NCBI GenBank assembly: GCA_905233215.1 | Contig: CAJODC010000012.1 | Location: 1 to 44,180, forward strand | Direction: 5' to 3' | Length of the DNA: 44,180 nt | Source: an uncultured Synergistales bacterium | GTDB lineage: Bacteria > Synergistota > Synergistia > Synergistales > Aminobacteriaceae | Shown: positions 1,166 to 28,561 of the stretch, one piece after another | Layout: every line of letters starts with the position of its first letter | Position numbering within the stretch: position 1 is the first letter of the stretch | Notes under the pieces: generated by a model | What the model was told of the DNA's origin: nothing | Databases searched by the model: none | What the model saw: only the letters and a program-made list of their open reading frames with translations | Program-made: the position numbers and the translations under genes

Positions 1166-2476
1166 TTAAATCACCTGACCCCGTATCAAATCATCAAGGC
1201 TCTGGCGTTCACAAACAACCTTCGCTTCACCATTCTCAACAAAAACAACCGCTGGCCTCGCAAGATAGTTATAGCTGCTCGACATGCTGAAAGTGTAAGC
1301 CCCTGTGTTGAACAGAGCGATAACGTCTCCAGCCTTGACGCTCTGAATCTCTGCGTCATCAATCAGAATGTCCCCAGACTCGCAGCACTTCCCAACGATT
1401 GAGACCTTTCCGCCGTTCTCAGGACGGTATATCTCTCCGTCTGCATCGTCAACCTTCACTGCGTTGTACTCGGCCTGATACAATGCGAATCTCGGATTGT
1501 CGGCCATGCCACCGTCAACCGCAATGTACGTAACTTCCGGCAGTGTCCTCACATTCTCGACAGTGTAGAGAGTTATTCCAGCCTCAGAAATTATCCATCG
1601 TCCCGGCTCAAGTATCGCTCTCGGAATCTCTAGCCCGTAATTTTCGCAGCCTTCAACTAACGTCTTCATCATTGCATCAGTGTAAAATTCTGACTTCATG
1701 GCCGGTATTTTCGGATTGATTACAGCTCCAAAGCCTCCGCCCATGTTCAATTCACGAGTGATGAAGCCGAAACCGTCTTTCAGTTCCTTCATCAGTCTCA
1801 AAATTACTTCAACCGATTTAGTGTAGTCGTCAGTGTCAAAAAGCTGTGAGCCTACATGAAAATGCAATCCCCTCATGTCGACATTTTTACACTCACGAGC
1901 GAACTTTATCGCCTCCGTCAGCATTGAGCCCTCACGAGAGTCAGCAGGTACGCCGAACTTGCTGTCAGTGCTTCCTGTAGCAATATACTTGTGAGTGTGT
2001 GCGTCAACTCCCGGAGCGACTCGTATCATTACACGCTGAACAATTCCGGCCTTCTCAGCGTAATTCTGAATCGTCCTCAGTTCATCAGGGTGATCGACAA
2101 TTATTCTTCCGACTCTGTTTTTCACCGCCGATTCAATCTCGGCGTGACTCTTTGCGTTTCCGTTCATCTCGATTCTTTCAGGCGGAAAACCTGCCGATAA
2201 CGCCGTGTGAAGTTCGCCAAGCGAAACAACATCAAGCCCTAATCCCTCGTCAGCAATCAATTTCGCCATCGCTCGAATCAAAAATGCTTTCCCTGCGTAA
2301 CGTACTCTTGTGTTCTCCCAGCGGTCAAGAAATGTCTCTCGTAACTCTCTGCATCTTGCTCGGATTATTCCTGTGTCAAAAACGTATAACGGCGTTCCGA
2401 ACCTTTGCGCTAATTCCTGACAGTCAACGCTGCCCCATGTTAAACGTGAAATTTTAAAACACTCCTTTTGCGTCAT
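1166..2476 (-). CDS. lysA: Diaminopimelate decarboxylase
   Basis: LysA decarboxylates meso-diaminopimelate to L-lysine, the last step of lysine synthesis, using pyridoxal phosphate. The 436-residue protein has the fold-III PLP lysine in YAGKA (K63), the HVGSQ motif, the phosphate-binding GGGFG, EPGRWIISEAG, and the catalytic-cysteine motif CESGD near the C-terminus. Length and motif order are those of the family. The start is unusual: a TATAAT box (2487-2492, minus strand) ends only 10 nt before ATG 2476, leaving almost no leader, while the only good ribosome-binding sequence (AAGGAG, about 2460-2465) lies inside codons 4-5. Either the mRNA is leaderless or translation starts at a rare in-frame codon further down (for example ATT, codon 9). 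The gene is divergent from the PAS/GTPase gene with 47 nt between them. Confidence 0.95.
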   Translation of the reverse strand: MTQKECFKISRLTWGSVDCQELAQRFGTPLYVFDTGIIRARCRELRETFLDRWENTRVRYAGKAFLIRAMAKLIADEGLGLDVVSLGELHTALSAGFPPERIEMNGNAKSHAEIESAVKNRVGRIIVDHPDELRTIQNYAEKAGIVQRVMIRVAPGVDAHTHKYIATGSTDSKFGVPADSREGSMLTEAIKFARECKNVDMRGLHFHVGSQLFDTDDYTKSVEVILRLMKELKDGFGFITRELNMGGGFGAVINPKIPAMKSEFYTDAMMKTLVEGCENYGLEIPRAILEPGRWIISEAGITLYTVENVRTLPEVTYIAVDGGMADNPRFALYQAEYNAVKVDDADGEIYRPENGGKVSIVGKCCESGDILIDDAEIQSVKAGDVIALFNTGAYTFSMSSSYNYLARPAVVFVENGEAKVVCERQSLDDLIRGQVI

Positions 2477-2496
2477 GATATTATTGATTATATAAA
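2468..2496. promoter_or_regulatory. Overlapping divergent promoters for lysA and the PAS-GTPase gene
   Basis: On the plus strand TTGCGT (2468-2473), a 17-nt spacer and TATAAA (2491-2496) form a sigma-70-like promoter for the gene starting at 2524. On the minus strand TATAAT (2492-2487) is a -10 box for lysA with only a weak -35. The two -10 boxes overlap by two bases and the plus-strand -35 lies inside the start of lysA, so the two promoters probably compete for polymerase. Confidence 0.55.
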
Positions 2497-2523
2497 ATCT
2501 TTGCGAAAAGGTATCACTCTATT

Positions 2524-4752
2524 ATGATCAACCTGACTGAATGGGAACGCGATAATTTCACAAATAATATTCACCTTCCTGACGTAACTGTAGTATTTCC
2601 GTCAAGGGAGATATATTTTTCACCAGGAGTCCTGAACGTTATGAGGCTCAATGTTGACACATGCCCGAAAACTTTAGACCAATGGTACGAACTCTGCCAC
2701 CCTGAAGATCACTCGAAGCTGTCAAGATTAGAGTCGATGATTAACGGCAATGAGAACACTATCTCACTCACTCGAAAACTTTACTGCGGTGACGGATATT
2801 ATCGAAACTTCAGACTTGACGCTTTCATTCAGCGCGACAGTTCAGGAAGGCCGGTGAAATTGACAGGCAGTGAGACTCTAGCGTTAAATGCGTGGCTTTC
2901 GTCAGCAGACGAGGGAGACAGAATAGAGTGCGTTGAACCCGGCGGACGTGTCAAAATTCTTGAGGCTGTCAGAGTGCAGGGTGTCATGACGTTGATTGAC
3001 ATAGGCATGATTGAGGACATGCAGAGGGAAAACGAGAGATTAAGACGCGAGATGCAGCGCAGAATTTTCGCTCAGTCTCCTGAATTGCCGACACTCCCAG
3101 AAGATTACAGCACAGGAACAATACTGAAGCAGAAGCTCGAAGACTGCATCAACTCGGCATTGAACGTCATGACCGGCGATAACAGGCTCAAAGCGTTACG
3201 GCGTTCGTTGAACGAGACAAGCATAATGATAGGGATAGCAGGTCTCACAAGCAGCGGTAAATCATCGTTCGTCAATTCGCTTTTAGGAGAGCGTCTAATT
3301 CCCGAACAGACGAGGGCGACAACTAATATTCCCATAATCTGCCGTGAAGGTGAAAAGCGGTGCGCAAAAATCTTCTATCAGGACGGGCGCACTGAAACCG
3401 CTAAAGGCTCAAAGCTCACAGCCTCATACATGAAGAACATAGCATCAGAGTCACGGAATCCCGGCAACAAGTCAGGCATTTCACGAATCGAATTGACCAT
3501 ACCGGGAGCGATGATACCTGATGGGATTTGTTTTGCCGACACTCCGGGATTTGACGCTCTGGCAAGTTCAGGCGGTGCTGCGCTGCGTAACGTTCTTCCA
3601 GAACTTGACATGATAATTTACGTTACGCCGGTCAGAGCTAGACTCAAGGGGTCTGATTACGATTACCTGCGACTCTTAATGAACATGAATGACCGAATTT
3701 TTTTCGTTTTGTCACAGATTGATCTTGAACGAGCTGACACAGAAGCAGGAGTGATAAAACATTCAGCGAACGACAAGATACTTGAGGACATTAACGCTCT
3801 GCGAAGGGACATGAAGAATTTTTGCGGACGAGACATTGACGTTATACCAGTGTCATCAAAGAATGCTCTCGAAAATTTTTACGACAAGAAGTCTCAGACT
3901 TGGTTTGACTCGAACATTGAGGACGCTGTGAAATTCTTTGCTCCTTTGGGTAAAAATTCATTTATCCGAGCTCTTATTCTCAGGGCAGAGAGGGCATTGA
4001 AACTTATTGACAGCGTAATTTCACGAAGAGAAGTAACAGGCTCATCACGATGGCGTTTACAGGAGTCGGCCGGGAAGCTCCGAAAGATTCTCGAAGACCG
4101 AAGAAATCTCCCGTCAATACCCGAAGGCTATTCATTTGCCGAAAGCGTCATAACTCCTCCTGCAAGACCTGAGAGTCCTTTAACCGGCCTGATAATGGCG
4201 ATGAGGGAAAGGGAGTTCAAAGCAAAATTTTTCGGGCTTGGAGTGTTCAGCAAAAAGAAGAAGGCGATTTTTCTTGGTGCTGAGAGGGAACAGAGCTTGA
4301 AACTTCTTTCGAGGCTGGCGCATAATTTGACGGTTGAGACTCTTCCTGACGGGAACGTGTCATCTTGTGAATGGCTTTGTACGGGCGAGACGATGCCGTT
4401 TGAGTGCGTCAAGCTGACAGTTACGGGGGTTGACGAGAACATTCTGATCGCCCCCCCGAACGTCAAGATCGCTCAGAATGTGGACTGGCATAAACTTTTC
4501 CGTGATTATGTTCCAGTCGTTAGCGTTGATTTAGCGCGTGTCGACTCTGGACTGTCTGACCTTGTGAACTCGCCGTACATCACCGGGCTTGCGCTGAATG
4601 AGTGGGTGCTGTCGTTCGGTAACGCTGGATTATTCGACACAAGACAGATTGATTTAGTGTCTCAAGTCCCAAAAAGAGTCAAAGAGTTTGTCGAACTCAA
4701 CGGCATAAAACCGCCTGAATGGTTCATCTACGAGAACTACAAGATATTTTGA
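2524..4752 (+). CDS. PAS-domain / dynamin-like GTPase fusion protein
   Basis: This 742-residue protein joins a sensor-like N-terminus to a GTPase. Residues about 20-120 look like a PAS_3 fold (HPEDHSKL at 59-66, ending GRPVKLTGSE), residues 130-160 resemble a further beta-rich segment, and 160-182 are a charged coiled coil. A dynamin-type G domain follows: G1 GLTSSGKS (240-247), a likely G2 threonine in RATTNIP, G3 DTPG (339-342), and SQID (397-400) in place of the usual (N/T)KxD. The last 300 residues are mixed helical/beta and I do not recognise them; no transmembrane segment is evident. Bacterial dynamin-like proteins act on membranes or as cell-cycle GTPases, but the role here is unknown. 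The RBS is modest (AAAAGG at 2506-2511). It is the only gene in the window that combines a signalling domain with a large GTPase. Confidence 0.75.
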   Translation: MINLTEWERDNFTNNIHLPDVTVVFPSREIYFSPGVLNVMRLNVDTCPKTLDQWYELCHPEDHSKLSRLESMINGNENTISLTRKLYCGDGYYRNFRLDAFIQRDSSGRPVKLTGSETLALNAWLSSADEGDRIECVEPGGRVKILEAVRVQGVMTLIDIGMIEDMQRENERLRREMQRRIFAQSPELPTLPEDYSTGTILKQKLEDCINSALNVMTGDNRLKALRRSLNETSIMIGIAGLTSSGKSSFVNSLLGERLIPEQTRATTNIPIICREGEKRCAKIFYQDGRTETAKGSKLTASYMKNIASESRNPGNKSGISRIELTIPGAMIPDGICFADTPGFDALASSGGAALRNVLPELDMIIYVTPVRARLKGSDYDYLRLLMNMNDRIFFVLSQIDLERADTEAGVIKHSANDKILEDINALRRDMKNFCGRDIDVIPVSSKNALENFYDKKSQTWFDSNIEDAVKFFAPLGKNSFIRALILRAERALKLIDSVISRREVTGSSRWRLQESAGKLRKILEDRRNLPSIPEGYSFAESVITPPARPESPLTGLIMAMREREFKAKFFGLGVFSKKKKAIFLGAEREQSLKLLSRLAHNLTVETLPDGNVSSCEWLCTGETMPFECVKLTVTGVDENILIAPPNVKIAQNVDWHKLFRDYVPVVSVDLARVDSGLSDLVNSPYITGLALNEWVLSFGNAGLFDTRQIDLVSQVPKRVKEFVELNGIKPPEWFIYENYKIF

Positions 4753-4758: not shown

Positions 4759-4778
4759 GACAAAAAGAGGTGCCAGCA

Positions 4779-5123
4779 ATGATGAGCAACGACAAAGCAA
4801 TAGCGGTAGAAATTGACGGAATGCGCTATGTGTTGGCTGACGGTCAAATAGCTCCTCAGCGACAACTGGCAACACAAGCTGAAGTGCAGGCAATAGACAG
4901 AAAATTGGACTTGCTGATTGAGAAAGTGAACGGCATTAACGGACGTTTTGATGACATGAAGTTTTATGTCTCGCTGGCTTTTGGAGTATTGGCTGTGATT
5001 GTGGCGTTTGTAGGATTGCCGCTGATAATATCAAAACTTGTGCAGAAAATAGAATTGACTGACGAACAACTGGACAGCCGAATAGACAGAGCAGTAACAA
5101 AAGCATTACAGGCAAAAGGATAA
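4779..5123 (+). CDS. Small coiled-coil protein with one membrane helix
   Basis: This is a protein of 114 residues with no known function. The N-terminal half (about 1-62) is amphipathic with a predicted coiled coil (AEVQAIDRKLDLLIEKVNGI). A single hydrophobic helix follows (FYVSLAFGVLAVIVAFVGLP, about residues 63-83), then a charged C-terminal helix. I place the start at ATG 4779 (or 4782) rather than GTG 4770, because that GTG is part of the ribosome-binding sequence AGAGGTG (4766-4772), which sits 6 nt before 4779. The layout resembles two other proteins in this window (28073-28561 and 41297-41659): coil first, single TM near the end. Such proteins are often labelled hemolysin XhlA-like or DUF1640-like, but the similarity here is architectural and may not mean shared ancestry. 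Confidence 0.7.
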   Translation: MMSNDKAIAVEIDGMRYVLADGQIAPQRQLATQAEVQAIDRKLDLLIEKVNGINGRFDDMKFYVSLAFGVLAVIVAFVGLPLIISKLVQKIELTDEQLDSRIDRAVTKALQAKG

Positions 5124-28072: not shown

Positions 28073-28561
28073 TCACCTCGTTTGGTCTTCTTTACGGAAT
28101 GCTCTTGCGACTGCTGATACTGTATCTGTTAAAGCTCCCAGCAGGGCTTTTACTCCCGCGACAATCTGAGGCATGGCAAGAAGCGCGATTATTATTGACA
28201 GAGTCCAATAGTTCCATGTGTAAAGATTGTTCACATCATGCTTGAGACCCGTTATGTCGTTCTGTAATACCTCAACCTTAGCTTCAAGTCTGTCAAACCT
28301 AGCATCAATCTTGTCGAACTTAGCATCAACCTTATTGAATTTCTCATCAACCGTGTCGAACTTTTCATCAACTTTCCCTTCAAACGCGCTAATTCTTCTG
28401 TCAATCCTCTCTGTGAGTGCGTTAAATTCCTTCAACATCGTTGAACGAAACTCCGCATTCTCTGCCCTCATATCTGAAAGCTGTTTGTCTGTCCGCGCAA
28501 AATGTTCCCTCAACAAAAGCTCAAGTTTGGCCATGTCTACGCTATTATCACCGCTGGTCAT
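28073..28561 (-). CDS. Coiled-coil protein with C-terminal membrane helix (heptad repeats)
   Basis: This 162-residue protein has no known function. Residues about 45-110 form an unusually regular heptad array (KVDEKFD, TVDEKFN, KVDAKFD, KIDARFD, RLEAKVE): five consecutive seven-residue units with V/I and F in the core, predicting a long parallel coiled coil. A hydrophobic helix follows (WTLSIIIALLAMPQIVAG, about 118-136), then a short region and a basic tail (RAFRKEDQTR). AAAGGAGG lies 11 nt before ATG 28561. The layout parallels the proteins at 4779-5123 and 41297-41659. It stands alone between two plus-strand operons. DUF1640-like or XhlA-like labels are possible but unproven. Confidence 0.75.
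   Translation of the reverse strand: MTSGDNSVDMAKLELLLREHFARTDKQLSDMRAENAEFRSTMLKEFNALTERIDRRISAFEGKVDEKFDTVDEKFNKVDAKFDKIDARFDRLEAKVEVLQNDITGLKHDVNNLYTWNYWTLSIIIALLAMPQIVAGVKALLGALTDTVSAVARAFRKEDQTR

Follow-up and report, generated by a model that had tools for sequence, protein, structure and literature searches.

A PAS-linked dynamin-type GTPase of Synergistaceae with a probable C-terminal pseudo-GTPase domain and a candidate tail-anchored partner

The gene at 2524..4752 (+) of the window (the whole stretch of 44,180 nucleotides analysed here, from a 1.74 Mb assembly related to rumen Synergistaceae MAGs) encodes a protein of 742 aa in which a PAS domain, a signalling helix, a dynamin-type G domain and a probable pseudo-GTPase domain follow one another. 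We put at roughly even odds (about 0.5) the reading that this protein is a soluble, PAS-controlled signalling GTPase or scaffold of the dynamin superfamily, held at the membrane by a partner protein and not itself a membrane remodeller; the reading draws on the domains, the absence of membrane segments from the GTPase, its linkage and co-occurrence with the partner gene and the repeated loss of G-domain motifs among its relatives, together with a C-terminal fold obtained by prediction. More tentatively, the whole may constitute an undescribed system of the Synergistaceae, comprising a PAS-gated dynamin-type GTPase with a degenerate G-like domain, a dedicated tail-anchored partner and repeated conversion to a pseudo-enzyme in which the scaffold is kept. 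Bacterial dynamin relatives have mostly been discussed as membrane remodellers; here the G domain has a sensor in cis, and several lineages that keep everything except the GTPase motifs raise the question of what a dynamin-type G domain does as a regulator. If the reading is true, the family would provide a natural gradation from working switches to inactive scaffolds, and the candidate partner supplies a concrete, testable binding pair.

Domain architecture of the window protein

The reading frame is uninterrupted from its ATG to the stop codon. Pfam placed a PAS_3 domain (PF08447) at residues 30–115 (2611..2868, +), over the curated cut-off (31.6 bits against 25.6, E 2e-7), and strands and helices in PAS order are present in the full-length AF2 model, which was built from a shallow alignment (pLDDT 68 overall and about 45 over the first 60 residues) and is poorly informed as to domain packing. 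Since a long-form relative (L080) matches PAS_3 at E 1.5e-12 and has a second PAS match over cut-off (PF00989), the PAS domain of the window protein is no chance match. Most family members retain the WYELCHPEDH and LYCGDG motifs of this domain. The Cys of LYCGDG is nearly invariant and a redox-sensor role was considered for it, which we do not claim because a Cys is common at this position of PAS_3 domains. Residues 119–159 (2878..3000, +), a helix and three strands, align with the C-terminal part of the second PAS domain of long forms (e.g. L070 and L080) and, by this alignment and the strand order of the model, are a remnant of that domain. They are followed by the signalling helix or coiled coil at residues 160–182 (3001..3069, +), which is helical in the AF2 model and contains the conserved stretch DMxxENxRLRREIQRRIF.

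The dynamin-type G domain occupies about residues 220–480 (3181..3963, +), with Dynamin_N matching residues 236–396 at 63.6 bits (cut-off 27, E 2.9e-17). Over the same stretch MMR_HSR1 scored 33 bits lower (E 5.6e-7), and matches to Era and MnmE lay far under their cut-offs, so that an Era/TrmE-type G domain is ruled out. By sequence the closest solved structures were IniA and the mitofusin Fzo1, and the best Foldseek matches of the AF2 model were IniA, mitofusin 1, Fzo1 and BDLP. The original prediction of a PAS domain, a coiled coil and a dynamin-type rather than Era/TrmE-type G domain within one 742-residue protein was thus borne out, both by Pfam over its cut-offs and by the predicted structure.

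All motifs of a dynamin-superfamily G domain (GxxxxGKS, switch I Thr, DxPG and xxxD) are present on the forward strand: the G1 or P-loop GLTSSGKS at residues 240–247 (3241..3264), the G2 or switch I Thr-Thr of RATTN, conserved in intact members, at residues 266–267 (3319..3324), the G3 DTPG at residues 339–342 (3538..3549) and the G4 SQID at residues 397–400 (3712..3723). With every motif kept, the window member may be a fully active enzyme. The SQID had been singled out as an altered G4 that might change guanine specificity; it is indeed there, but it is no oddity, for the intact members of the family mostly conserve G4 as [ST]QxD, with the Asp kept. The suggested change of specificity is not supported, since SQID is the usual state of the family and the Lys reappears (SKID) in L023, L058 and L087. 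Following the G domain, the AF2 model of the window form has only helices at residues 479–524. A scan of the 742-aa sequence found no hydrophobic segment of transmembrane strength and no paddle-like segment, and the GTPase would accordingly appear, from its sequence, to have no lipid-binding or membrane-inserting element of the dynamin superfamily.

The C-terminal domain (residues 546–742; 4159..4749, +) has no Pfam match and no PDB match by profile, in agreement with the earlier statement that the last 300 residues resemble nothing known; by fold, that statement does not hold. Modelled alone (AF2, 21 sequences; pLDDT 78, pTM 0.78), the domain has the strand and helix order of a Ras-like G domain, and its leading Foldseek matches are GTPases, namely SAR1, G-alpha subunits and RABL3, then EHD (best E 3.4e-5, TM about 0.5). 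None of GxxxxGK[ST], DxxG and NKxD is in place in these residues, nor, on inspection, in the long forms. The domain is probably a pseudo-GTPase, an assignment taken from a predicted fold with a TM of about 0.5; hhalign detected no sequence relation between it and the family's own G domain, and homology of the two is unproven.

Distribution of the family and its long and short forms

The GTPase family was recovered in 60 of 188 Synergistota genomes, every one of them belonging to the window's family: the window's genus contributes 40 (out of 43 examined) and other genera contribute 20, with one copy per genome. A contig scan, which returned close relatives only, showed near-identical architecture at 22 loci of Synergistaceae. 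Within these searches the family is an old one restricted to Synergistaceae. Among phages and viral contigs no relative of the GTPase was found, and plasmid matches covered the G domain only and were to dynamin family proteins. Between the window protein and L007, pN/pS was 0.19, and the window protein is therefore under purifying selection.

The form found in other genera is mostly about 1150–1340 aa long and is ordered as PAS, coiled coil, second PAS, G domain, a segment of about 250 residues and C-terminal domain; genus g25 also has forms of 619–753 aa. The window form still has the last part of the second PAS domain and is without most of the stretch between the G domain and the C-terminal domain, the segment of about 250 aa being missing in the window's genus, and from these alignments it is best read as a shortened version. 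In genome G006 the PAS–G part and the C-terminal domain lie in two separate frames (L069:1610-3765, also L027:3306-5461), so that either the gene is truly split there or the assembly is at fault. Two loci of the same genus (L066:78-2728 and L068:35-2343) carry a different dynamin-like GTPase of 417–418 aa, immediately preceded by an overlapping gene whose product has 466 aa in L066 and 350 aa in L068, and look like a separate two-gene dynamin pair.

Repeated loss of the G-domain motifs

Most relatives, like the window member, have GLTSSGKS, RATTN, DTPG and SQID. When motif losses were mapped on a FastTree tree of 55 family members, ATTN was found to be lost in about five clades (L064+L086; L082-L084; L065+L025+L067; L021-L024+L054+L058; and L019+L020+L026+L050+L051), and is also missing from the distant L087; collapsing the deep, weakly supported nodes leaves at least three losses, and the exact count for the switch I Thr depends on the alignment (in L019, for example, the Thr lies two residues earlier). 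Two of these clades are gutted: L064, L086 and L082-L084 have another residue in place of the P-loop Lys and carry a deletion running from switch I to DTPG. These members retain the PAS domain, the DxERxxxxAG stretch that follows G4 and their C-terminal domain, the last being seen only in part in L086, which ends at a contig edge. Because pN/pS between the gutted members is 0.35–0.41 and their PAS and C-terminal domains are retained, they are not pseudogenes; in degenerate pairs the ratio was 0.28–0.45. Lineages with gutted G domains have also kept the partner gene described below. The GTPase motifs are dispensable in some lineages. Alongside the gutted members of the window's genus, L064 (3288-4469) and L086 (40-2627), are histidine-kinase-like genes and not lysA.

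A candidate tail-anchored partner

In the long-form genera a gene for a protein of 190–370 aa adjoins the GTPase gene downstream on the same strand. Its product has a conserved N-terminal helix motif (LDxTTARxVxEL), in a helix that carries LDPTTARLVSEL, and a coiled coil with WEGxLRAxGxAxTRELxxLSxE. A single hydrophobic segment, ending 0–6 residues from the C-terminus, was present in 14/14 aligned copies and in the copy of the source genome (G000 contig C52:3222-3986), and the protein would thus be a tail-anchored coiled-coil protein as judged from sequence. In the window's genus a profile search found the partner in 39 of the 43 genomes, unlinked to the GTPase and, where inspected, mostly beside hemC/cobA-like genes (named by eye from sequence).

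Among the 188 genomes the GTPase occurs in 60, the partner in 58 and both in 55, a co-occurrence which shared ancestry within one family inflates and confounds. The five genomes with the GTPase only are fragmented assemblies, and two of the three with the partner only are 64–74% complete; in the third (G112) a gene for a secreted protein, found upstream of the GTPase in long-form genera, and a partial partner gene are adjacent with no GTPase (C35:3378-4615), which looks like a deletion of the GTPase gene from between them. Both genes are jointly absent from genera g16, g17, g20, g21 and g23 of the same family. A 117-aa coiled-coil/TM gene at 4770-5123 (+) was rejected as the partner because the other loci inspected in the genus do not have it next to the GTPase and a better candidate exists elsewhere in the genome.

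Proposed mode of action and alternative explanations

In the mechanism that we propose, the PAS domain, of which the ancestral form has two copies, would sense a cytoplasmic signal, which the helix would pass to the dynamin-type G domain, and this domain would switch through nucleotide-dependent dimerisation, as in dynamins; a signal-gated character of the GTPase is a plausible inference. The PAS and C-terminal pseudo-GTPase domains would serve as binding surfaces for the partner and for some output, and the separate tail-anchored coiled-coil partner would hold the complex at the inner membrane, presumably by direct binding. GTP turnover would tune the switch, yet be dispensable in some lineages, and the essential function for that reason probably lies in signalling between proteins rather than in remodelling membranes.

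The original prediction had leaned towards a membrane or division role, and a signal-gated, membrane-remodelling dynamin-like protein acting in fission, fusion or division, with the partner as its membrane receptor, is an unlikely but reasoned alternative. The G domain is of dynamin type with IniA, mitofusin and BDLP as fold neighbours, the extra residues past the G domain of the ancestral long form could be a stalk, and the partner is membrane-anchored by sequence. However, the GTPase is without a membrane-inserting segment, those extra residues are missing from the window's genus and in the long forms have no profile match to any solved dynamin stalk, and several lineages are without a functional G domain; remodelling consequently has less support than signalling, and the membrane or division role is not sustained. 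IniA, BDLP, DynA and other bacterial dynamin-like proteins resemble the window GTPase in the sequence and fold of the G domain, whereas the window form has neither a long stalk nor a membrane-insertion segment and has a PAS domain and a second, pseudo-GTPase domain. PAS_3 sensor proteins (GGDEF proteins, histidine kinases) similarly share the PAS fold and the signalling helix that comes next, but their output is a kinase or cyclase and that of the window protein is a GTPase.

For the signalling GTPase or scaffold that we favour, the nearest functional precedent is E. coli RdcA (YjdA/CrfC), a soluble dynamin-like GTPase that has a signalling role with a small partner, RdcB, and is active in its nucleotide-free (GTP-free) form (PMC6510439). 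Both systems have a soluble dynamin-type GTPase with an uncharacterised C-terminal region and a small partner, and the rdcB gene adjoins rdcA as the partner gene adjoins the GTPase gene in long-form genera. In contrast, RdcA has no PAS domain in cis, and RdcB is unrelated to the tail-anchored partner and described as soluble (PMC6510439). In the literature, as far as it was covered, only the RdcA/DgcE paper was relevant to a PAS domain with a bacterial dynamin, the PAS there being in trans. The more specific explanation, that the window protein is an RdcA-like regulator of cyclic-di-GMP, or of another particular signalling enzyme, with its PAS in cis, would account for this outline layout and for the four GGDEF matches over cut-off in the source genome, but is more doubtful still: homology to RdcA was tested and rejected beyond the G domain (full-length NF007368 match 13.4 bits against a cut-off of 1146, with only the G domain aligning), RdcB and the partner showed none, and no GGDEF gene was seen linked to the GTPase gene.

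The surroundings of the gene are of a housekeeping kind and show nothing suggestive of a mobile or defence island. An intergenic gap of 47 bp (2477..2523) is shared with a divergent diaminopimelate-decarboxylase-like (lysA-like) gene (1166..2476, −; Pfam), which is present at 20/22 loci, is kept in most of the genus and is probably not part of the system; downstream, where the contig suffices, there are often NUDIX, hypothetical and phosphoribosyltransferase-like genes. That the protein serves in phage defence or conflict, as LeoA-type and other dynamin-like defence proteins do, is very improbable: PADLOC gave a weak match to LeoA (17.7 bits, E 3.6e-4) over the G domain and not the full length, and against it stand a single copy, near-universal in the genus, at a chromosomal site next to lysA that most of the genus conserves, the lack of matches among phages or viral contigs and neighbours that are housekeeping genes, with no defence genes seen alongside. 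A decaying gene, in which relaxed selection would explain the repeated motif loss and the split frame in G006/L027, is refuted for most lineages by the substitution pattern (pN/pS 0.16–0.45 throughout, gutted members included), and with the C-terminus and PAS strongly kept and the partner retained it has the slightest of chances overall.

Other genes at the loci

The window genes at 4770-5123 (+) and 28073-28561 (−) encode small coiled-coil proteins with one hydrophobic segment each. In long-form genera a gene for a secreted-looking protein of about 280–340 aa (signal peptide by eye) lies directly upstream of the GTPase gene (L073, L074, L075, L076, L079, L080, L087 and L088); it is absent from the window's genus, the copies tested had no Pfam or NCBIfam match, and the protein contains the motifs ARDHPLFxRPxGYxIVxY and KAGGEVVFxENPSLGG. 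Downstream of the partner gene in the same genera, small proteins of about 94–121 aa are encoded (L073:7147-7959, L075:2023-2379, L079:7073-7378 and L088:7625-8327), which by eye resemble single-strand-binding OB proteins (VTVSGLLHHIRSEKKNDKYFLFSIKQET).
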